A DNA stretch of 24,809 nucleotides from a virus. Below the pieces are notes generated by a model, which worked only from the letters and a program-made list of their open reading frames with translations, ran no database searches and was not told the DNA's origin. How positions within the stretch are numbered: position 1 is the first letter of the stretch; every line of letters begins with the position of its first letter. Positions 4,037-22,139 of this stretch are shown here, in pieces. The DNA lies in the IMG/VR virus record IMGVR_UViG_3300009100_000042, positions 1 through 24,809 of that record; one strand, 5' to 3'. A program made the translations under genes and the position numbers.

Positions 4037-5155
4037 TTATACTTCCTCCGCAATTCCCATGCCGTCACGGGCTTTCGCGATCATCTTCTTCAATTTGTCG
4101 TGGCCATAGAAATTAGCCGCATAGTCGGGGAACACAAATTCACCGGCTGAGAGCATAGACGGCACGTCATCAGGGATCGCCCCTGCTGATGGCGACAACT
4201 CAAACGGCACGTCACCACCTTCGTCAAGGAAACTGCTTGCAATACCAGCTACCGAGCCGAGGATACCACCAATGCCAGAACTTTGCTGTGCTTCAAGTTC
4301 TTGCTGCTTAAGCGAGTTTGTGTAGCCAGTATTGAGCGCGTTGGTCCACGAGTTGATCAGATTGCCCGTGCTGGTGAGGAAATCGTTGGTTGCAGTGCGG
4401 TGCTTGCCCTGCAACTCGGAAGTCTTCAGACGGGCGTCCACCCCGGCACCGCCGACTTGTGCTGCCGCCCCAGCAGTGCCGACGCCGCGAGCAGCAACGT
4501 TCTCGCCAATATCGACCATACCACGCTTCATGTCGAGGACTTCTTTGTCCAGTCCCCGCGCCTGCAACTCGCGAGTAAGTGCGTCACTGAACATGGCACG
4601 GGAAGTCTCGTCAACGTCCAGTCCGGCCTGCGTCCCCGCCGCTGCTTGCGCCGCCGCCTGTGCCGCTCGAACACCGTAATCGAGTGCACCGTATCGCGTT
4701 GCAGATGGGTTAATGCCGAAGCTTTCCAGTGTCGATAGGTTCTTCTGGCGAGCGTCCTCAAACGTCTTGTTGACATTCTCAACCGCCCTCCCCATCATAA
4801 AGGACTTATTAGCCTCAGAACCGTAGTTCTCCGCGTCCTGCTTCAGCTTGTCAACTTCAGCCGAAAAGGCGTCAGCCTTGCCCTGATAAGTGTCAACGTT
4901 GTTCAAGAACTCGTCTTGAAGCGGCACGAAGACGCTTTCGTAGCGGTCGCGATCAGCCTCGTAATCGCCTTTCAACTCAGCCATGGTGTCCATCATTTGC
5001 TGAGTATAAGGCTTGGCGATCTTCCAATCCTTCTTGCCCTGCTTCCTCGCCCACTTATAATGCTTCTGGGCGAGCCTCATAGCCCGCTGAGAAACCTTGC
5101 GGCCCATGTTGGCTACAGGCTCAATGCCCTCCATCGGGTCGTCGGAAAGAGCCAT
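4037..5155 (-). CDS. Internal virion (ejection/core-type) protein
   Basis: A 372-residue protein rich in alanine, glutamine and charged helices. Residues 20-130 look coiled-coil-like. There is a long Ala/Gly stretch around 160-240 and a C-terminal segment DVPSMLSAGEFVFPDYAAN, a sequence type seen in phage internal and tape-measure-like proteins. The start is ATG at 5155, preceded by AGAGGG at good spacing; the frame runs 13 codons further upstream, but those codons cover the promoter. Position between the fibre genes and the giant lytic ejection protein supports a role as an internal core protein ejected with DNA. It follows a promoter and a dyad site, so it may be independently controlled. 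No enzymatic motif was seen. Confidence 0.7.
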   Translation of the reverse strand: MALSDDPMEGIEPVANMGRKVSQRAMRLAQKHYKWARKQGKKDWKIAKPYTQQMMDTMAELKGDYEADRDRYESVFVPLQDEFLNNVDTYQGKADAFSAEVDKLKQDAENYGSEANKSFMMGRAVENVNKTFEDARQKNLSTLESFGINPSATRYGALDYGVRAAQAAAQAAAGTQAGLDVDETSRAMFSDALTRELQARGLDKEVLDMKRGMVDIGENVAARGVGTAGAAAQVGGAGVDARLKTSELQGKHRTATNDFLTSTGNLINSWTNALNTGYTNSLKQQELEAQQSSGIGGILGSVAGIASSFLDEGGDVPFELSPSAGAIPDDVPSMLSAGEFVFPDYAANFYGHDKLKKMIAKARDGMGIAEEV

Positions 5156-10252: not shown

Positions 10253-10426
10253 TCAAATCCTCAGTGAGCCAAGGTTGCCAGTAAGTAGTAGCACCAGCAA
10301 GATGATCAAGATCAAACCGATCACGCCCACCGGCCCATAGCCCCAGCCACGTGAATAGCCCCAGCCCGGATATGATCCAACCAAGAGCACAATCAAGATG
10401 ATTAGCAGGATCAGACCTAGCGACAT
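10253..10426 (-). CDS. DUF3309-type small membrane protein, possible holin-like role
   Basis: A 57-residue protein with two hydrophobic segments (about residues 3-18, LGLILLIILIVLLVG, and 35-52, IGLILIILLVLLL) joined by an aromatic turn, GWGYSRGWGYGP. This layout matches the DUF3309 family of tiny membrane proteins. ATG at 10426 has a perfect AGGAGG upstream. It sits two genes after the endolysin, so a role in lysis (holin or antiholin) is conceivable, but DUF3309 proteins also occur in bacterial chromosomes with no known function. Confidence 0.75.
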   Translation of the reverse strand: MSLGLILLIILIVLLVGSYPGWGYSRGWGYGPVGVIGLILIILLVLLLTGNLGSLRI

Positions 10427-10437
10427 GGCGTCCTCCT

Positions 10438-10529
10438 AAAAAAGTGAGGCAGTTCCGGTCACGGGTGACAGCGCTCCGCCCCACGGAGAATTATGTTTTA
10501 GGGGCGATTGCACGCGCCTTTCCTGCCTC
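10438..10529 (-). ncRNA. Foldable RNA with U6 tail between the Tad2-like and DUF3309 genes
   Basis: Three nested or adjacent stems can be drawn on the minus strand. The closing stem pairs GAGGCAG (10529-10523, starting in the upstream stop codon) with CTGCCTC (10452-10446), which is followed by six U (10443-10438). Inside, CGCCCC pairs with GGGGCG (10506-10501 with 10482-10477), extended by GCGC/GCGC across an asymmetric bulge. A short GTCA-CCCG-TGAC hairpin (10469-10458) completes a three-way junction. It could be an intrinsic terminator with unusual internal structure, an attenuator, or a processed small RNA. The next gene's AGGAGG follows the U tract at once. Confidence 0.5.
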
Positions 10530-10755
10530 AGTCTACGAGTTCCCAGTCAATTGCGAGCAAGTCTGTCTGTGAGCACAGCCACGGAACATTCGTCTGCTGC
10601 ACGGTGAACATAGCGACGAAGCCTTGCCAGTTGGGCACAGGCTGGATGTAATGCAGGAACATGCCCTTACCGTTCCACCCCGCCCGGCGAACCTGCTTGC
10701 CGTCCAGTAGCTGCTTCACTGCCCAGCCAATGCCATTCCCAATGTCATACGGCAT
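10528..10755 (-). CDS. Tad2-like (DUF2829) protein, putative anti-Thoeris sponge
   Basis: A 75-residue protein that fits the DUF2829/Tad2 pattern closely. Residues 12-37 contain AVKQLLDGKQVRRAGWNGKGMF, and the C-terminus (59-74) reads W-L-C-S-Q-T-D-L-L-A-I-D-W-E. Characterised Tad2 proteins bind cyclic ADP-ribose-type signals made by Thoeris TIR enzymes and so block abortive defence; some relatives bind cyclic dinucleotides. The ATG lies one base after the endolysin stop, so it is in the lysis part of the late operon. Binding here is inferred from the family only; a structural role cannot be excluded. Confidence 0.75.
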   Translation of the reverse strand: MPYDIGNGIGWAVKQLLDGKQVRRAGWNGKGMFLHYIQPVPNWQGFVAMFTVQQTNVPWLCSQTDLLAIDWELVD

Positions 10756-10756
10756 A

Positions 10757-11467
10757 TTACATATACTCCTTGACGTAGCCCCGAAACAAGTCGTTGGCTT
10801 GCTGGTAAGACATACTTGGCTCCCATGGAAGCTTGTTAATGTCCCACTTACCTGACTGCGGAATGCCGAGGTTCTTCTGCACCTCGCCGTGGGACAGAAC
10901 CGTTGTTGGCGTCACTGCGATCTTGTACTTATGGCAAAGCTCAGCAGCGACTTTAGCCAGTGTGAGCCACTGACTTTCGAGCATCGGGTACTTACCGGGG
11001 TTGAACGGGCTCTCAATGGCACCGGCCATACAGGCGACCGCAATGCCGATCCGGCCGGTGTTGGCCTGTGACGTGTGTGCTGCGTAGCCATCAGCGTCGC
11101 TGGTCGAGACGTTTGCCTTGATGGAGTAGTCGCCGCGAACAAGCTTACCGGTGCTCTCCACAATGATGTGGTAGTGCTCCTTGTCGCTCTCGCTGGCCGT
11201 GTATGCCCCCGCCGACCAATGGATAATGATCGCCTTCATGGCACAATCCGGCATCCAGTCAGCCGGAACGAGATTACCGGGTGGGGGTTCTGGCTCTACT
11301 GGCTCAGAAGCATCAATGGAAACGCCAAGTAAAGGCTTGTTGCTGTCAAACCAAAGTTCACACGCGGCTTCTGTTTCACCACCCCAGTCGCCGTCAGCGC
11401 CGTACTTCGGCAGCGGATAACCGTTGTTGATCAACAATTTTTGAAACTGAACCTTAGTAAGCGACAT
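10757..11467 (-). CDS. Endolysin: N-acetylmuramoyl-L-alanine amidase (Amidase_2)
   Basis: A 236-residue lysin. Residues 1-45 look like a peptidoglycan-binding domain (FQKLLINNGYPLPKYGADGDWG, in the usual G-x-x-x-D-G-x-x-G style). A proline-rich linker (52-64) follows, then an amidase domain with zinc-ligand candidates His83 (IIIHWSAG), His193 (VLSHGEVQ) and Asp209 (KWDIN). It cleaves the bond between muramic acid and the stem peptide at lysis. The ATG at 11467 is preferred because GAGG precedes it by six bases; an upstream ATG at 11521 would add an arginine-rich leader with no site. No signal peptide is seen, so a holin would be needed. Confidence 0.9.
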   Translation of the reverse strand: MSLTKVQFQKLLINNGYPLPKYGADGDWGGETEAACELWFDSNKPLLGVSIDASEPVEPEPPPGNLVPADWMPDCAMKAIIIHWSAGAYTASESDKEHYHIIVESTGKLVRGDYSIKANVSTSDADGYAAHTSQANTGRIGIAVACMAGAIESPFNPGKYPMLESQWLTLAKVAAELCHKYKIAVTPTTVLSHGEVQKNLGIPQSGKWDINKLPWEPSMSYQQANDLFRGYVKEYM

Positions 11468-11483
11468 TTTCTTCCTCTTTGAC

Positions 11484-11500
11484 CGGCGTCTACGTCGCCG
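11484..11500 (-). terminator. Weak hairpin between fibre and endolysin genes
   Basis: CGGCG and CGCCG pair across a seven-base loop in the 53-base gap. No U tract follows, so it is at best an attenuator or mRNA-stability hairpin. Confidence 0.25.
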
Positions 11501-11520
11501 AAGCCTGTACGGGTGAACCA

Positions 11521-12924
11521 TTAACCTACGTAGACGAGCTTCCTGATAACGAAAGTGGGCTGAACGTTGTTATGAGCAGCGTCACCACCTGCGGCGTCTG
11601 ACAAGAAATCAGCCTGCGCGGATGTTGCAGAACCGCCAACGCTTGTCGTATGGGTGTGCGCACCAGCACTCGCGGCAGCACCCGATGAAAATGTATGAGA
11701 ATGCCCGCCAGCAGCGGCAATGGTTAAACCAGTGAAGGTATGGGTATGATTTGCCACAGCATCAGTGGCACCACTTGTCAACGTGTGAGTGTGTGAACCA
11801 GCAGAATTGATGGTGCCCGACACTGGGTGGTTGTGGCTTCCCCCAACATCAGTCGGATTAACTCCGGGAACCCCTAGAGGCGACGAAATACTTTGTATAA
11901 TATCGTTCGTTGCACCCGTGGACCCAATATCTAATACAAGTCTTTCATACCCTGTCGCCATGCTATGCTGGTGGCCAGCAACGGTATCCGCACCAAGAGC
12001 AAAAGTGTGCGTGTGTGCCGCTTGGGTGCTCAACACCAATGACGTAAGAGCATGGGAATGACCACCAGCGGAACCTACGGTTCCACCCGAGCTTGTATGT
12101 GTGTGGTCACCCACAGCGTCCACAGTACCAGTCACCGCGTGGGTGTGAGCGCCACCACTATTAACGGTAACAGTAAGACCAGCGATGTTGACAGTTGGAT
12201 CGGGCGGGTTATTATTGTGTTGGTGAACCGCGAGTTGTGAAGGCGTTAAAACGTGGGTCTCTGTGCCGCCTACGCTACCCACTGCTAAACCGCTAACACC
12301 TCCTGTTTGACCGGTCAACCGCCCCGCTGGCACCCCACCCATCGTGTCAAGACCGGCCGTAACTCTACCACGCAAGTCCGGCACGGTAAATGTCGATAGG
12401 TCAGCCGACACTCCATATTGAGCGTTAACCCCAGTATGTGTGCCTGAAAATGGTGCAGAAAGGTTAATAGCGACACCACCGAGTGTAGATGCTATCTGAA
12501 ACGAGTTTGCCGTATAACCAGTCGCAATTATGTAATAATCCTGATTGGCAACAAGTGGAAGACCTGTTGCAGCGTCTGTTGGCAATGTTCCAGTTGTGCT
12601 GAACCGAATTTTAGAATTTATCGGTAAGCCATGTCCGGTCCAGTTGACAACACCCGGAGTACCAAGCGTGAACGTAACTGTTCCCTGCTTGACCATCGCG
12701 GCAAACAGCAAAGGATAAGTCGCGGCCGCTACGGACTGCCCATAACACTCCAACAAGTAAGACGGAATAGTGTGACCAAGAAAGTCAATTACCTGCCCGG
12801 CAATCATCCAGCCACTACCAGTTATAGCATGATCAGCGTTCCAATCACGCTGTGGCTGAATTTGCTGCGGGTCGGCCCCGTCTAACTTATTACTATGAAA
12901 GGCGTGTTTGACAACAAGAGCCAT
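11521..12924 (-). CDS. Tail collar-domain fibre with periodic HxH metal-binding motifs
   Basis: A 467-residue receptor-binding-type fibre. The phage tail collar signature is split: AGQVIDFLG...LECYGQSVAAATYPLLFAAM at about 42-77, and FTVPDLRGRVTAGLD at 179-193, with about 100 residues inserted between. From 234 onward there are eleven HxH motifs. Five start at 260, 274, 289, 304 and 318, and five at 364, 378, 393, 408 and 423, so the period is 14-15 residues. In trimeric fibre tips such motifs bind iron or zinc along the axis. The C-terminus VIRKLVYVG is typical of this fibre class. ATG lies one base after the previous stop. Confidence 0.85.
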   Translation of the reverse strand: MALVVKHAFHSNKLDGADPQQIQPQRDWNADHAITGSGWMIAGQVIDFLGHTIPSYLLECYGQSVAAATYPLLFAAMVKQGTVTFTLGTPGVVNWTGHGLPINSKIRFSTTGTLPTDAATGLPLVANQDYYIIATGYTANSFQIASTLGGVAINLSAPFSGTHTGVNAQYGVSADLSTFTVPDLRGRVTAGLDTMGGVPAGRLTGQTGGVSGLAVGSVGGTETHVLTPSQLAVHQHNNNPPDPTVNIAGLTVTVNSGGAHTHAVTGTVDAVGDHTHTSSGGTVGSAGGHSHALTSLVLSTQAAHTHTFALGADTVAGHQHSMATGYERLVLDIGSTGATNDIIQSISSPLGVPGVNPTDVGGSHNHPVSGTINSAGSHTHTLTSGATDAVANHTHTFTGLTIAAAGGHSHTFSSGAAASAGAHTHTTSVGGSATSAQADFLSDAAGGDAAHNNVQPTFVIRKLVYVG

Positions 12925-13991: not shown

Positions 13992-14987
13992 CTACGCCTT
14001 GGTGACAACCGCCTGAGCGATGGCGATGTTGTCGAGTATCTTCCAGCCGTAGACCTGCAGGCCGCGCAGGAGGTTGGCGAAAGACATTTCCGACCGCAGG
14101 GTCTCCATGTTGGTCATTTGCGACGCGAAGGTGAGGCCGTGCGGATGGCCAGCGTAGATCACCCACTCACCAGCCGCCAGTGCGGGCGGGCCAGCGATCA
14201 CCCCCTTCGGGAGTAGATTGCTGACGTAGATGGTGAACCGGTCGATCATGCCGAGCCGCCCGTTACGGAGCATCGACACACTGTCACCAGTGAGGTAGAC
14301 CTGCCGCATTTCGGACATCTTGATCATCGTCCCCATCCACGCCGGGATGATTGCCCACCGGCCGCTTTCGGGGATGTTCTGCTCGTCAAGAGCCTGACCG
14401 AGCCGAAGCAGAACGTCGATGATTTCCACTTCGCCGACAGCCGGTGAGCGGGGAACAACCGCCAGCGGGGTGCCGGTGACGCCGAGGTTGATATCGGCGG
14501 AGATTGCGCCAGCAGTGAGGCCACGATTGGCCGCTGCCGCGCCGTTGAGCATTCCGAGAAGGACTTGGGTGTCGATGGCGATCTTCAACTGCTCTGAGGC
14601 GTCGTCAGCCCACAGAGACAGGTTGTTAATATCCGACTGCTTCTCCATCACGTCATCGAGGGCGGTATTGAAGTATTTGCCCTGATCGATGTTCAGTTCC
14701 GTGAAGTTGCCGGTCGGGCGCTGGACAGCGAGCAAGCCGTCAGCCGCGTAGTCGTTGATCGTGATCGTCGGCTTGGTCCTAATGATGACCTTATCGCCGT
14801 AGTTCTTGATTTCGCCCTCGTAGTCGGTGTTGCTGATCGCCGTGAGGACGGTCGAGTGGTAGAACTTCTCGATGAGCTTGCCGGACCAGATTTCGGGGAT
14901 GAAACCGGTCGCGGAAAGATTGTTACCGGCTGAACCGGTTGGCCATATCGGCGGTGTGGTCGCCGGACCTGCTGCTGGGAATGGCAT
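13992..14987 (-). CDS. Major capsid protein
   Basis: A 331-residue protein following the scaffold gene, in the usual order. The N-terminal part contains FIPEIWSGKLIEKFYHSTVL and YGDKVIIRTKPTITINDY, the standard arrangement in podovirus HK97-fold coat proteins. The C-terminal region contains ANLLRGLQVYGWKILDN, typical of the last capsid strand. ATG at 14987 is chosen because GGAG precedes it at six bases; a TTG four codons upstream is in frame but lacks a site. It forms the icosahedral shell on the scaffold. No N-terminal maturation cleavage site can be seen. Confidence 0.88.
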   Translation of the reverse strand: MPFPAAGPATTPPIWPTGSAGNNLSATGFIPEIWSGKLIEKFYHSTVLTAISNTDYEGEIKNYGDKVIIRTKPTITINDYAADGLLAVQRPTGNFTELNIDQGKYFNTALDDVMEKQSDINNLSLWADDASEQLKIAIDTQVLLGMLNGAAAANRGLTAGAISADINLGVTGTPLAVVPRSPAVGEVEIIDVLLRLGQALDEQNIPESGRWAIIPAWMGTMIKMSEMRQVYLTGDSVSMLRNGRLGMIDRFTIYVSNLLPKGVIAGPPALAAGEWVIYAGHPHGLTFASQMTNMETLRSEMSFANLLRGLQVYGWKILDNIAIAQAVVTKA

Positions 14988-15004
14988 TTGCGTCTCCAAC
15001 CTCT

Positions 15005-17216: not shown

Positions 17217-19352
17217 CTATCCTACCCCACCCGCAATACGGGTGCGTGGACCTTGGTCTTTCGTAACATCACCGCCCTTGGGCGTCTGTTGCCCCTGCGC
17301 CTTAGCTCCGGCAGCAACGGTCTCAGTGGTTTCCCCTTCAGGGGGAGGGGCTTCCATCTCAGCCGCAGTGCGTGCCTCGGCCTCAAGCTGGGCGTCGATT
17401 TCCTCTTCGGTCGGGACGATCTGCTCGCCGTCCAGCCCGATGTTGGTAGATAGAGCGCGCAGAAGGTTAGCGCGGCCCTTAACCCCAAGAATTGGAGCGT
17501 CGATTGGATTAGCAGTGATCTGCAAGAACTCAAGCTGACGGGACCGCTCAGTCTCACGCTGAATGGCGACGTTGACGCCTTTAACTTGGATATTTTCGTC
17601 GCCACGTAACCAACCAGCAGTATCGCTGAGCATCAAAACGTCAACGGTGCCTTGCAGAAGTGGATCGAACACGTCCCGGTCAATATTAGCGGCGACCGTT
17701 TGGAGTATCTTGCTCGCGTTGCCCATGAGCATAGCGAGACCCGAAGACGTGCGTCCTGCGCCCGAGCCTACTCCCTGCCCGGAGAGATACTTCGGTATCG
17801 CTGATATGTCGTCGGCTATGGAGCCAAACGCCTGATAGACCGCCAGTAGCTCTTGTGCGTTGCTCTGCGGCTGGAAGAAGTCCACCGGAGGCTGCGTGTT
17901 CCCGTTCCCCGTTGGGTCGCTCTGTGCGTGCCACCTCTTCCACGGGAATATCTGCTCCCCGTTCTCCCCCGGCGCGAGCCTGTCGTCTAAGATAATCACT
18001 TGCGGCCCGGAGGCTATCGACATATTGTTGACCAAGGACCGCAAGGTCGCGTTGGTGACATCCTCTATGTCCGACAAAATATCCGGCAGGCCATTGCCAA
18101 CCGGCGTTCCGGGCACTTTCTCGAATGACGTGATGTAGTACGGGTGCCGCTTCCTCGGACTTGGTGTCAACTGGCATTTTATGACCCATTTTCCAATCAG
18201 CCACAACTCAACGTGGTGGTCACGGAGGGGCTGGCCTAGAATAACTGGATCGGTCATCCCGTAGTCGATCAGCAGTTTACCCTGAATGTTCCCCGTAAAT
18301 CGGAGGAAATTCATCATCCCCGACCGGTTCCACCGGGGGTTTTCACGGTTCTCGTAGAGCGCCCTCTCCGTGTCAGTGTCGTCCCAATTATCCGCGATGC
18401 CGCCTCGCCCATACTCTTCGAGCACGGCCTCGACATTCGCATGATTATAACCCGGAAGATCGAGACAGTCATTGAGTTCGGCCCGTGTAATTCTACCGCG
18501 CTCAATCACGTCTGCTTGTTCAATGCTGGACGCTCCCGGTGTCCAGTACAAGTCAAACGGAGAAATTCGATACCAGCACAAACGAGGCTGGTTGACCACC
18601 TGTGCGACGCCGTTCATGTAGCGGACTTGCGGGACCACCCGAACTTCTGGCCCCTTCAAGCAAGCGAACGGAAACAGCGGCAAATCAACAAGAAACTCTG
18701 CAAAAGCTTGATACAACCCGCCTTCAACAAAAATTTCCTCAATTTTCTCCTCAGTCAACTTGGCACGATCAGCAGCGTTTTTCTTTTCCGCTGTGCGTGC
18801 CATGAGGAAAAGCTGTTTGGCGCGCTCCCGCGCCGCTTCCTCGTCAACTGGCTGACCGGCTTGCTTGAGGGAGAACAACTCCATCAAGACGATTTTTTGG
18901 ATAGCCGCTTGCACTTCTGGCGGGACATCGGGGTCGGCGGGAGCACCGATACCCCAAGCCCGTTCCGGCGACAGATAAACATCCCGCAGAAGCGAAGTGG
19001 CCCCACGACACTTCATGGCGACCAATCTGGCGTAGACTTCTGACCCCCCGAACTGCCGGATAGCCGCTAACTTCTGAGGGTCATACTGTCCATTAAAAGT
19101 GCGCAGTGCGGCTAAAAGCCTACGCGCCCAGCCGGGCTGCGTATTGCGATGATTTGAAAATATTTCATATTGATTTGTGACGTACGCAGCCAAGTCATCA
19201 AGTGTTTCTTGGCTCTGTTGCTGCGGCTGGCTCTGCAACCGCTGCTGCTCTAACATCTGTGTGAGAGCGGTTCCCCCTATCACTCGCAACGCTGGGCGCG
19301 TCGGGTGTGTTGAGACGACAGGCGGCGCAGTCGTGGGGATCGCTTCGGCCAT
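17217..19352 (-). CDS. Portal protein
   Basis: A 711-residue protein consistent with the podovirus portal ring through which DNA enters and leaves. Marker segments are YLSGQGVGSGAGRTSSGLAM around residues 500-520, KILQTVAANIDRDVFDPLLQG after it, and an acidic C-terminal tail with EEEIDAQLEAEARTAAEME. Length fits larger podovirus portals. The ATG at 19352 has AAGG five bases upstream. The frame continues 53 codons further, but that part would run across the divergent promoter and has no ribosome binding site. The gene is first in the late operon. Unusually, the terminase genes lie on the opposite strand. Confidence 0.85.
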   Translation of the reverse strand: MAEAIPTTAPPVVSTHPTRPALRVIGGTALTQMLEQQRLQSQPQQQSQETLDDLAAYVTNQYEIFSNHRNTQPGWARRLLAALRTFNGQYDPQKLAAIRQFGGSEVYARLVAMKCRGATSLLRDVYLSPERAWGIGAPADPDVPPEVQAAIQKIVLMELFSLKQAGQPVDEEAARERAKQLFLMARTAEKKNAADRAKLTEEKIEEIFVEGGLYQAFAEFLVDLPLFPFACLKGPEVRVVPQVRYMNGVAQVVNQPRLCWYRISPFDLYWTPGASSIEQADVIERGRITRAELNDCLDLPGYNHANVEAVLEEYGRGGIADNWDDTDTERALYENRENPRWNRSGMMNFLRFTGNIQGKLLIDYGMTDPVILGQPLRDHHVELWLIGKWVIKCQLTPSPRKRHPYYITSFEKVPGTPVGNGLPDILSDIEDVTNATLRSLVNNMSIASGPQVIILDDRLAPGENGEQIFPWKRWHAQSDPTGNGNTQPPVDFFQPQSNAQELLAVYQAFGSIADDISAIPKYLSGQGVGSGAGRTSSGLAMLMGNASKILQTVAANIDRDVFDPLLQGTVDVLMLSDTAGWLRGDENIQVKGVNVAIQRETERSRQLEFLQITANPIDAPILGVKGRANLLRALSTNIGLDGEQIVPTEEEIDAQLEAEARTAAEMEAPPPEGETTETVAAGAKAQGQQTPKGGDVTKDQGPRTRIAGGVG

Positions 19353-19359
19353 GGCCACC

Positions 19360-19388
19360 TTGACTTTCAAAAACAGGTATGCTACTCT
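19360..19388 (+). promoter_or_regulatory. Rightward promoter of the packaging module
   Basis: TTGACT (19360-19365), 17-base spacer, TACTCT (19383-19388). It would give a leader of about 24 bases before the endonuclease ATG. Its -10 overlaps the -10 of the leftward promoter. Confidence 0.55.
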
Positions 19389-19412
19389 ACACTGTATTGT
19401 AGAGGTTGTCAA
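19384..19412 (-). promoter_or_regulatory. Leftward promoter of the portal/late operon
   Basis: On the minus strand a perfect TTGACA (19412-19407), a 17-base spacer and TAGAGT (19389-19384). The transcript would begin about 25 bases before the portal ATG. Confidence 0.6.
19385..19404. promoter_or_regulatory. Perfect 7-6-7 palindrome over both -10 elements
   Basis: CTCTACA-CTGTAT-TGTAGAG lies across both overlapping -10 hexamers. Protein bound here would block both directions. It is unrelated in sequence to the dispersed 19-bp dyad. Confidence 0.55.
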
Positions 19413-19418
19413 CCCCCC

Positions 19419-19874
19419 ATGTCCAAGACAAATACAGAATACAATAAAGAGTATTACAAGAAAAATAAGGAGAAGGTGCTTGCCAAAAACAAAGCATGGA
19501 ATGACACACACTCTGAAAGACTGAAAGAACTATCCGCTAAAAGGTATGCAGAGCGACCCAAACCAGAACCAAAACCAAGACAACCAAGACCACGTAAATT
19601 TACATCCAAACATGAAAGATACCGGCACTATCAATATAAAAGGCTGTATGGTATAACATTAGAGCAATACAATGCTATGCTGGCAGAACAACATGGGGTT
19701 TGCAAAATCTGCTCAAAACCACCAGAAACACGTTTGTTGAGCGTTGATCATTGCCATAATACTAAAAAAATACGTGGATTAATATGTCAACATTGTAATA
19801 TGGGGCTAGCAAACTTCAAAGATAACATTGAAGCACTAGAACGAGCCGTCAAGTACCTAAAAGGTGAACTATGA
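19419..19874 (+). CDS. Recombination endonuclease VII-type HNH nuclease
   Basis: A 151-residue protein. The first 60 residues are basic and disordered. The core contains YGITLEQYNAMLAEQ (77-91), CKIC (95-98), DHCH (110-113), RGLICQHCN (119-127) and a C-terminal helix, which is the endonuclease VII/HNH zinc-binding layout with two CxxC pairs. T4 endonuclease VII resolves branched DNA before packaging, so the location next to terminase is logical. The gene is visibly richer in A/T than its neighbours, which suggests later acquisition; a free-standing homing nuclease is the main alternative. No good ribosome binding site precedes the ATG. It overlaps terS by four bases. Confidence 0.85.
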   Translation: MSKTNTEYNKEYYKKNKEKVLAKNKAWNDTHSERLKELSAKRYAERPKPEPKPRQPRPRKFTSKHERYRHYQYKRLYGITLEQYNAMLAEQHGVCKICSKPPETRLLSVDHCHNTKKIRGLICQHCNMGLANFKDNIEALERAVKYLKGEL

Positions 19875-20449: not shown

Positions 20450-21286
20450 TTGGCCCTCATCACAGACGACATCACCATTGACTACGCTGCCCCGCCCACA
20501 ATTGGGCGCATGATGCAGAGTGAGGCGTTTGGACGGCTCGTTGCCGGTCCTGTCGGCTCCGGCAAGACTTTGGGGTGCATTTTTGAGCTATTACGCCGAA
20601 GTATTCAGCAAGGAAAAGCTCCTGACGGGTACAGGTACACCCGTTTTGCCATCGTCCGGCAGACTCTCAAACAGATGCGTGAGACCTTGCTGAAGGACAT
20701 AATGTCAGGTTTACAGGGCATTGTGTCGTACAAAGTGTCAGAACACACCATTTTTATCAAATTTGGGGACGTTCGCTCAGAATGGATACTGATCCCACTT
20801 GAAAACATTGAAGACCAGCGGCGTCTTCTGTCGTCCCAGTTGACCGGAGCGTGGATCAACGAGGGCATTGAGATTGACATTTCGCTGATCGACCCCATTG
20901 GTGGCCGGTGTGGACGTTTCCCCGGCCCAAAACTAGGTGGCTGCACGTGGAAAGGGGTCATCGTGGACACCAACTTCCCAGAGGAAGGGGGAGAATGGTA
21001 CAATTTTATGGAGTTAAACACTCCGAGCGACTGGCAAATGTTCTACCAGCCGGGTGGTCTCACCCCCGAAGCCGAAAATCTGCAGTGGCTCAACCAAACC
21101 CCTGACACACTACTACTCTCTGAAGACGATCCGATACGGCTGGCCCAAGGCCGAAAGTATTATGAGCGGCTCGCAGGGTCCACGCTTGGACCAAACTGGG
21201 TAAAACGCTACGTTCACGCCCTTTCGGCGATGACCCCAGTGGTGCTGCCGTTTTTCGTGATAGTTTTGTTAAGTCGTTTCACGTGA
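20450..21286 (+). CDS. terL: Large terminase, ATPase part (frame-split)
   Basis: A 278-residue product holding the packaging ATPase. Walker A is GPVGSGKT (33-40). A conserved RQT motif lies at 70-72. TGAWINEG (132-139), with Glu138 as likely catalytic base, is the Walker B-like region. The start is TTG at 20450, since TGA CAA precedes it in frame; the nearest ATG would leave only about 12 residues before Walker A. Homology ends at codon 258 (CTT, 21221-21223). After it this frame runs 21 unrelated residues to a TGA. The family sequence continues in the -1 frame (FGDDPSGAAVF, from TTC at 21223). Confidence 0.85.
   Translation: MALITDDITIDYAAPPTIGRMMQSEAFGRLVAGPVGSGKTLGCIFELLRRSIQQGKAPDGYRYTRFAIVRQTLKQMRETLLKDIMSGLQGIVSYKVSEHTIFIKFGDVRSEWILIPLENIEDQRRLLSSQLTGAWINEGIEIDISLIDPIGGRCGRFPGPKLGGCTWKGVIVDTNFPEEGGEWYNFMELNTPSDWQMFYQPGGLTPEAENLQWLNQTPDTLLLSEDDPIRLAQGRKYYERLAGSTLGPNWVKRYVHALSAMTPVVLPFFVIVLLSRFT
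21221..21236 (+). other. -1 frame junction in terL
   Basis: Reading CTT and then TTC (sharing the T at 21223) restores the family sequence YVHALFGDDPSG. The tract CCCTTTC is not a canonical slippery heptamer in the zero frame, and the following hairpin (CGGC/GCCG enclosing ACC/GGT) is weak. A missing T in the sequence (three instead of four) would explain it equally well. Confidence 0.55.
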
Positions 21287-21289
21287 AAC
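21276..21289. promoter_or_regulatory. parS-like 14-bp palindrome GTTTCACGTGAAAC
   Basis: A perfect palindrome equal to the core of the bacterial chromosomal parS (ParB-binding) consensus; with flanks it matches 15 of 16 positions. It covers the stop of the first terL frame and the GTG of the second, and in the family frame codes for FHVK. Function as a ParB site is unproven; the conserved protein sequence could produce it by chance. Confidence 0.4.
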
Positions 21290-21921
21290 ACTCGCTTGAG
21301 CCAGTCATTGGGCATTTCCTGCTTATTGGGCAAGATTTCGGCCGCGATCCATGGTCGATCATCTGTCAGCCCAATCATAAGGGCCAATTGCTGGTTCTTG
21401 AAGAAGTCCCCGTCGAGAATATGGGGTTGGAGAAGCATATTCAAATGAATTTGCGCCCCCGTCTCATGCAAGAGCGGTATAGGGGTCGTCCAATAGCGAT
21501 GGTGGGAGACCCCGCTGGGGTAGCCAAAGATAGTCTGTACGAAGAAACCAGTTTTGACCTGCTCAAAAAGCATGGTTTTAGTGCCTATCCGGCGTCAACC
21601 AACGATATAGACGCGCGACTACGCGCCTGTGAGACGTGGTTCCTCGAACAGCGCGGCGGAGAAGCTGCAATCTTGATCGACGGGTCTCGATGCCCCAAGC
21701 TAGTTCGCGCCCTATCAGGAGCTTATAAGTTCGGAAAGACCCGCGATGGGCGGCGAAAAGCCCTACCTGAGAAAGATGAATGGTCTCACCCGGCAGACGC
21801 CTTACAATACGCATGTCTCGCCGCCCTCGGGGGCCAACAGTTGCAGTATATTACACGCCGTCTATCGGCGGCGATGAACCGGTCTTCTCGTCCTTTGATG
21901 CCGGTGGCGGCGTGGACTTAA
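21283..21921 (+). CDS. terL: Large terminase, nuclease part (frame-split)
   Basis: The open frame begins well before 21283 (at least from 21223) and holds the RNase H-like nuclease that cuts concatemers. IGQDFGRDP carries the first metal aspartate, MVGDPAG the second, and EWSHPADALQYA the third. The first start codon in this frame, GTG at 21283, overlaps the stop of the ATPase frame (GTGA), so reinitiation could make a separate 212-residue nuclease. But the family sequence GDDPSGAAVFRDSF lies before it, so a 490-residue fused protein is the ancestral form. The stop shares TTAA with the stop of the convergent gene. Confidence 0.83.
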   Translation: MKHSLEPVIGHFLLIGQDFGRDPWSIICQPNHKGQLLVLEEVPVENMGLEKHIQMNLRPRLMQERYRGRPIAMVGDPAGVAKDSLYEETSFDLLKKHGFSAYPASTNDIDARLRACETWFLEQRGGEAAILIDGSRCPKLVRALSGAYKFGKTRDGRRKALPEKDEWSHPADALQYACLAALGGQQLQYITRRLSAAMNRSSRPLMPVAAWT

Positions 21922-22124
21922 AGTGACGCCCTCACTGCAGCGTCCTTGGCTTCGAGCAGCTTGCGCAACGCCACGGTGCGTTCAGCGTTGCGCGGGATAA
22001 CATCGACAATTACCCGCGCTAACTCCGCAAACTCCATGCTCACACCCTTCAGTTTTTCCGACAAGTGTTCGTAATTGAAGAAAGCGAGAATGGGATCAGT
22101 CTGAACTTCCTCTGCAGTAAACAT
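21918..22124 (-). CDS. Acb2/Tad1-hairpin-like protein, putative anti-CBASS sponge
   Basis: A 68-residue helical protein. The order FFNYEHLSEKLKG, FAELARVIVDVIPRNAERTVALRKLLEAKDAAVRA fits the small Acb2-type family, in which a first Y-x-[HP] segment is followed by a long helix and an R/E-x-T-x-A-L-x-K-L-x-E-A helix. Characterised members form hexamers that trap cyclic di- and trinucleotides, blocking CBASS effectors. ATG at 22124 has AGGAG seven bases upstream; a GTG one codon before is less likely. It is the last gene of the leftward early-type cluster and ends convergent with terL. The family assignment is from pattern only. Confidence 0.6.
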   Translation of the reverse strand: MFTAEEVQTDPILAFFNYEHLSEKLKGVSMEFAELARVIVDVIPRNAERTVALRKLLEAKDAAVRASL

Positions 22125-22139
22125 CACTTCTCTCCTCGG

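Follow-up and report, generated by a model that had tools for sequence, protein, structure and literature searches.

A small open reading frame (ORF) situated directly after an endolysin gene in the genome record of a soil phage (the window, the whole 24,809-nucleotide stretch of DNA that was analyzed) raises two questions: what its product does during infection, and why a gene of this kind would be located among lysis genes.

A Tad2 family gene coupled to the endolysin gene

The ORF occupies exactly positions 10528-10755 of the minus strand, with its ATG at 10755 and its stop at 10528, and encodes a 75-aa protein, MPYDIGNGIGWAVKQLLDGKQVRRAGWNGKGMFLHYIQPVPNWQGFVAMFTVQQTNVPWLCSQTDLLAIDWELVD. 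Membership of the Tad2 (DUF2829) family, as claimed in a preliminary description of the locus, was borne out by sequence searches and by the predicted fold. The protein matched Pfam PF11195 (Tad2-like, formerly DUF2829) at E 1.2e-18, with a score of 67.9 bits against a curated cut-off of 25 and a match that spanned profile positions 3-73 of 73; it also matched PHROG 1048 (E 1e-18) and PHROG 872, and single-sequence phmmer recovered solved Tad2 chains (SPO1, Myroides odoratus and others) at 5e-10. Searches of NCBIfam and PADLOC returned zero matches at E 0.01. Both sequence segments quoted in that description were found in the protein. An AF2 monomer model built from a 64-sequence alignment had a pLDDT of 83.7; every Foldseek match to it under E 0.001 was a Tad2 or AcrIIA7 entry, and realignment to all Tad2 entries shown gave Z-scores of 10.4-12.3 with rmsd values of 1.6-2.4 Å. 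The product of the ORF is a genuine Tad2 family protein.

On the minus strand the portal gene comes first and three small ORFs follow it; next are a scaffold-position protein, the major head protein, two structural proteins, the collar fibre, the amidase endolysin and tad2. Downstream of tad2 are a DUF3309 protein, small ORFs that are basic or proline-rich, a conserved protein of 593 aa and a protein of 626 aa (Table 1). The terminase genes are on the opposite strand to the portal-to-tad2 block, which by its gene content reads as a late block. The preliminary placement of tad2 in the lysis part of a podovirus late operon therefore agrees with the gene order beside the endolysin, while podovirus is a presumptive label drawn from the portal match (PHROG 332), the head protein and the relatives of the phage. 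The hydrophobic DUF3309 protein, which had zero PHROG matches, is a holin candidate given its position near the endolysin. The portal shares 59.5% identity with its counterpart in Rhizobium phage RHph_TM27A. The GTG annotated as its start codon probably lies too far upstream, and an endonuclease VII gene on the opposite strand overlaps the 5' end of the portal ORF as annotated. The large terminase is present as two overlapping ORFs in different frames; in another assembly of the same phage (L108) and in the relative L112, both parts are intact in one frame, and the split in the window is a frameshift caused by mutation or by assembly error.

Table 1. Positions of tad2 and of other features of the window, with the basis for each assignment
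Feature	Position	Strand	Basis
Tad2-like gene, 75 aa	10528..10755	-	Pfam PF11195 E 1.2e-18; AF2 model versus solved Tad2s Z 10.4-12.3
Shine-Dalgarno-like AAGGAG of tad2, within the 3' end of the endolysin gene	10766..10771	-	Sequence reading
DUF3309 hydrophobic protein, 57 aa, directly after tad2	10253..10426	-	Pfam DUF3309 E 1.6e-19
Amidase endolysin	10757..11521	-	Pfam Amidase_2 E 9.2e-10; PHROG 5867 endolysin 3.1e-35
Collar-domain tail fibre, upstream of endolysin	11521..12924	-	Pfam Collar E 1.5e-08; PHROG 8763 tail protein
Major head protein, same block as tad2	13992..14999	-	PHROG 267 E 4.7e-52
Portal (head-tail adaptor), start of block	17217..19511	-	PHROG 332 E 1.3e-55
Endonuclease VII	19419-19874	+	Pfam E 4.6e-23
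Large terminase, first ORF	20450-21286	+	
Large terminase, second ORF	21283-21921	+	

The endolysin stop and the tad2 start are arranged as TAA-T-ATG, with the stop codon 1 nt before the start codon, and the AAGGAG sequence, which was graded a good Shine-Dalgarno, is located 10 nt before the ATG. Translation of tad2 is coupled to that of the amidase endolysin, and on the basis of that coupling late expression of tad2 is a fair inference. No promoter of its own was evident for tad2; minus-strand promoter-like sites were found instead at 12.2-12.6 kb, and the five minus-strand sites detected, relative to a mean of 2.5 (sd 1.4) in shuffled sequences, do not represent a convincing excess. There was no minus-strand terminator-like site between the endolysin stop and the DUF3309 gene. 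A second assembly (L002), the 17,562 bases of which align to the window at 99.99%, encodes an identical 75-aa protein.

Pocket residues, the short insert and the expected ligand

In Tad2, the gcADPR pocket is formed by three loops (beta1-beta2, beta3-beta4 and beta4-alpha3), by strand beta4 and by helix alpha3 (review PMC12043709). These elements were taken from that review, and the pocket was assessed by conservation across solved Tad2s; we infer that the GWNGKGM and W..S..D..A.DW stretches of the protein correspond to the elements named there. Among the positions that are identical in four solved Tad2s, the 75-aa protein has kept G10, A12, L16, G19, V22, R24, G26-K30, M32 and F33, and also W59, S62, D65, A68, D70 and W71. 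In the beta1-beta2 loop (GWNGKGM) and the C-terminal W..S..D..A.DW stretch, every residue common to the four solved proteins is retained, and the core columns, which are invariant in the 64-sequence alignment, are intact. Residues I9, K14, L17 and N56 differ from those common to the solved set, and the beta3-beta4 loop, which contributes to the reported pocket, reads TVQQTN instead of following the TADG/TAQG pattern that is usual there. The preliminary description had named loss of pocket residues as grounds for abandoning its proposal; no such loss was seen at the level of sequence, as the pocket-loop core positions common to solved Tad2s are kept.

The distance from GKGM to the second conserved Trp is 26 residues, the lowest among 78 sequences. 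The same spacing is 42 residues in SPO1 Tad2 and ModTad2, 54 in SptTad2 and 60 in HgmTad2, and the 75-aa protein is without 16-34 residues of the insert that precedes this Trp. Other short members include L005, L006 and Acinetobacter phage XC38 (L085), spacing 29. It would be possible to read so short a protein as a worn-down or repurposed Tad2 that has lost binding of an immune signal and acts, for instance, as a lysis-timing accessory, and the divergent beta3-beta4 loop and the place between the endolysin and a possible holin would also suit such a role. We consider this improbable, however, in view of the intact core columns, the open frame with good translation signals, the identical protein in the second assembly, and the occurrence of short members in other phages.

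Absence of the insert bears on the ligand of the protein. The long insertion of the HgmTad2/SptTad2 dinucleotide-binding type, between beta2 and the later strands, is missing from the 75-aa protein, and the cyclic-dinucleotide site of Tad2 is located in that insertion (review PMC12043709). The site reported for long-insert Tad2s is therefore probably absent here. SPO1 Tad2, which has an insert of intermediate length, does not bind 3'3'-cGAMP (PMC11722364). Taken together, the missing insert, the location of the dinucleotide site within it and the lack of binding by SPO1 Tad2 favour an ADP-ribose-type ligand, which we predict to be the sole ligand type. A sponge of the same fold with another main target, either cyclic dinucleotides (CBASS) or a CRISPR system through AcrIIA7-type activity, has precedent in family members that carry those labels (8kbi/8kbk as AcrIIA7; 8wjd as SptTad2 with cGG), but with the dinucleotide-linked insertion gone, and with 3'3'-cGAMP not bound even by the longer-insert SPO1 protein, we regard it as unlikely for the window protein.

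Location of tad2 in related phages and across the family

Closely related phages carry tad2 at other sites. The portal relatives L112 and L113 have the same late gene order, a major head protein that is 88% identical and an endolysin that is 61% identical to those of the window, and there were zero tad2 matches after their endolysin genes. Their tad2 is located at the end of a block beyond the terminase, convergent with the terminase (L112 4391-4612), and the L112 Tad2 has 45% identity to the window protein by tblastn and 50% over aligned columns. In L118, L119 and L125, tad2 is about 2 kb beyond the terminase (L118 about 4757-4990). A comparison of ORF lists showed that L112 has a clear equivalent of the window gene at 21918-22127 and that the terminase stop directly follows this gene in the window, so the window is without a tad2 at the site used by L112. 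In RHph_TM27A, the gene after the endolysin encodes a hydrophobic protein, and there were zero tad2 matches in the half of the genome that was searched.

A tree of 80 sequences placed the window protein with the long-insert proteins L012, L015, L030 and L041 (99/94), apart from L112 and L118. A simple relocation of one ancestral tad2 within the phage lineage is disfavoured by this grouping, yet forcing the window protein together with L112 cost 28 log units at a p-AU of 0.08, which is not a rejection. Because of that p-AU value, independent acquisition of the window tad2 is favoured by the tree but not proven. As tad2 changes place among close relatives, it is a mobile accessory gene and behaves as an accessory counter-defence gene, unlike a virion component.

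This behaviour is relevant to the earlier suggestion that the late-operon position of the gene reflects carriage of its product in virions, which would deliver it at infection. That position would fit virion carriage, and so might the fold comparison, in which the next entry after the Tad2s belonged to the virion neck of phage 812 (PDB 8qkh chain S; Z 6.1, rmsd 5.7, 17% identity), although this resemblance of the model probably reflects a common arrangement. Against it, the close relatives L112/L113 and L118/L119/L125 have their Tad2 beyond the terminase and outside the late block, the family is also encoded in non-late blocks of many phages, such as SPO1 and XC38, and the family sequence profile matches zero virion proteins in the PDB. 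We consider virion carriage very unlikely.

A late position for tad2 is also common in the wider family. From a tblastn search with Tad2 (208 phage records), 25 annotated phage neighbourhoods were read, a non-random set that was picked for diversity, classified by hand and includes some close kin (three Drulisvirus). In 12 of these 25, tad2 lies among packaging, structural or lysis genes or immediately behind them, on their strand. It follows the lysis cassette in Pm86, Louie, IME10 and Kapi1, and lysis genes in AP1 and MR4. KPPK108.1, KMI6 and K40PH129C1 carry it between the genes for the major capsid protein and tail tubular A; in phiAH14a it precedes the major capsid gene, in IME346 it separates terminase from portal, and in RHph_I1_18 it comes after baseplate genes. 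Besides these 12, Lactobacillus phage Lb has tad2 just before its terminase, and in the remaining annotated phages, SPO1 and XC38 included, the gene is in other blocks. In two Klebsiella Drulisvirus phages (L088 and L105), the tad2-like gene between major capsid and tail tubular A encodes DY in place of the final conserved DW. Among metagenomic relatives, for which gene calls were made with the tad2 ORF forced in, tad2 was located three genes after an endolysin (L004), near the major head gene (L005 and L010), right after a head/protease-type protein (L008), between terminase and portal (L030), between portal and a scaffold-like protein (L012) and before a tail protein (L015).

Two published observations are consistent with these locations: in the rhizobial podovirus AP-20-A, the Tad2 gene p015 is flanked by the predicted holin gene p014 and the autolysin gene p016 (PMC13299392), and staphylococcal Thoeris is activated by a phage major head protein, a late product (PMC12578639). 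The initial view that a late location is unexpected for an early-acting protein is not upheld by the frequency of such addresses in the 25 phages, by AP-20-A or by the sensing of the major head protein by Thoeris. A late or lysis-cassette position is common for the Tad2 family, and since the major head protein can set off Thoeris, a sponge made late would still be in time. This indicates that a late address is normal for Tad2 genes and fits a capsid-triggered Thoeris with no need for delivery in the virion.

Proposed function and comparison with known Tad2 systems

We think it likely that the 75-aa protein is a short, late-made sponge of the Tad2 type that binds an ADP-ribose-type TIR signal and blocks activation of the Thoeris effector. 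Under this proposal, tad2 would be expressed late from the structural/lysis transcript, and its product would assemble as a homotetramer, as in the family, with pockets to which neighbouring subunits contribute the GWNGKGM loop and the W..S..D..A.DW stretch. By analogy with characterized members, the protein would sequester gcADPR or His-ADPR without cutting it, and the Thoeris effector would stay off. Late synthesis would be enough if Thoeris responds to the major head protein; the gene for one possible trigger, the head protein of this phage, lies upstream of tad2 in the same block.

The host is likely to be alphaproteobacterial, and probably rhizobial, given the identity of the portal to that of RHph_TM27A; screening genome contigs with the portal to find a host gave zero matches. 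A survey covered 199 genomes of the order to which Bradyrhizobium uaiense belongs. In two of them (G038 and G176), a STALD-domain (ThsA-type) gene and a ThsB-type TIR gene are at most about 1.1 kb apart, so a suitable target exists at low frequency in a plausible host order. ThsB-type TIR matches were present in 33 of the 199, many of them in large proteins.

We offer with considerable doubt the further idea of a minimal Tad2, either with late, capsid-coupled expression selected by a capsid-sensing host Thoeris or with a trimmed pocket that binds an undescribed TIR signal. The 75-aa protein could serve as a minimal scaffold for separating the parts of Tad2 that are needed for ADP-ribose signals from those needed for cyclic dinucleotides.

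The find is one more, short, member of the Tad2 family in the usual kind of place, and such a position is already on record for a similar phage. P015 of Sinorhizobium podovirus AP-20-A is likewise a Tad2-like protein of a rhizobial podovirus, encoded between predicted holin and autolysin genes (PMC13299392), but it is 97 aa in length, has the insert and is most similar to ModTad2, whereas the window protein has 75 aa; in addition, the core proteins of AP-20-A resemble those of Paenibacillus phages, while the window phage is related to RHph_TM27A by its portal. SPO1 Tad2 (gp34.65; 8sme, 8smf, 8smg and 8wje) shares the fold (best Z 12.3), the core residues and 38% identity over 73 columns, but its GKGM-to-Trp stretch is 16 residues longer and its gene belongs to a cluster of small genes and has no lysis genes next to it. 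ModTad2 of a Myroides odoratus prophage (8v3e and 9eib) is comparable in fold (Z 11.3-11.9), with 41% identity over 66 columns; it was solved with His-ADPR and has an insert 16 residues longer than that of the window protein. HgmTad2/AcrIIA7 and SptTad2 (8kbi, 8kbj, 8kbk and 8wjd) have the same fold (Z 10.4-11.8) and core residues but differ in the long insertion that is linked to cyclic-dinucleotide binding. The Tad2-like proteins of the uncharacterised viral contigs L012, L015, L030 and L041 share the clade of the window protein, and three of the four adjoin packaging or structural genes, yet they have the long insert and belong to different phages.
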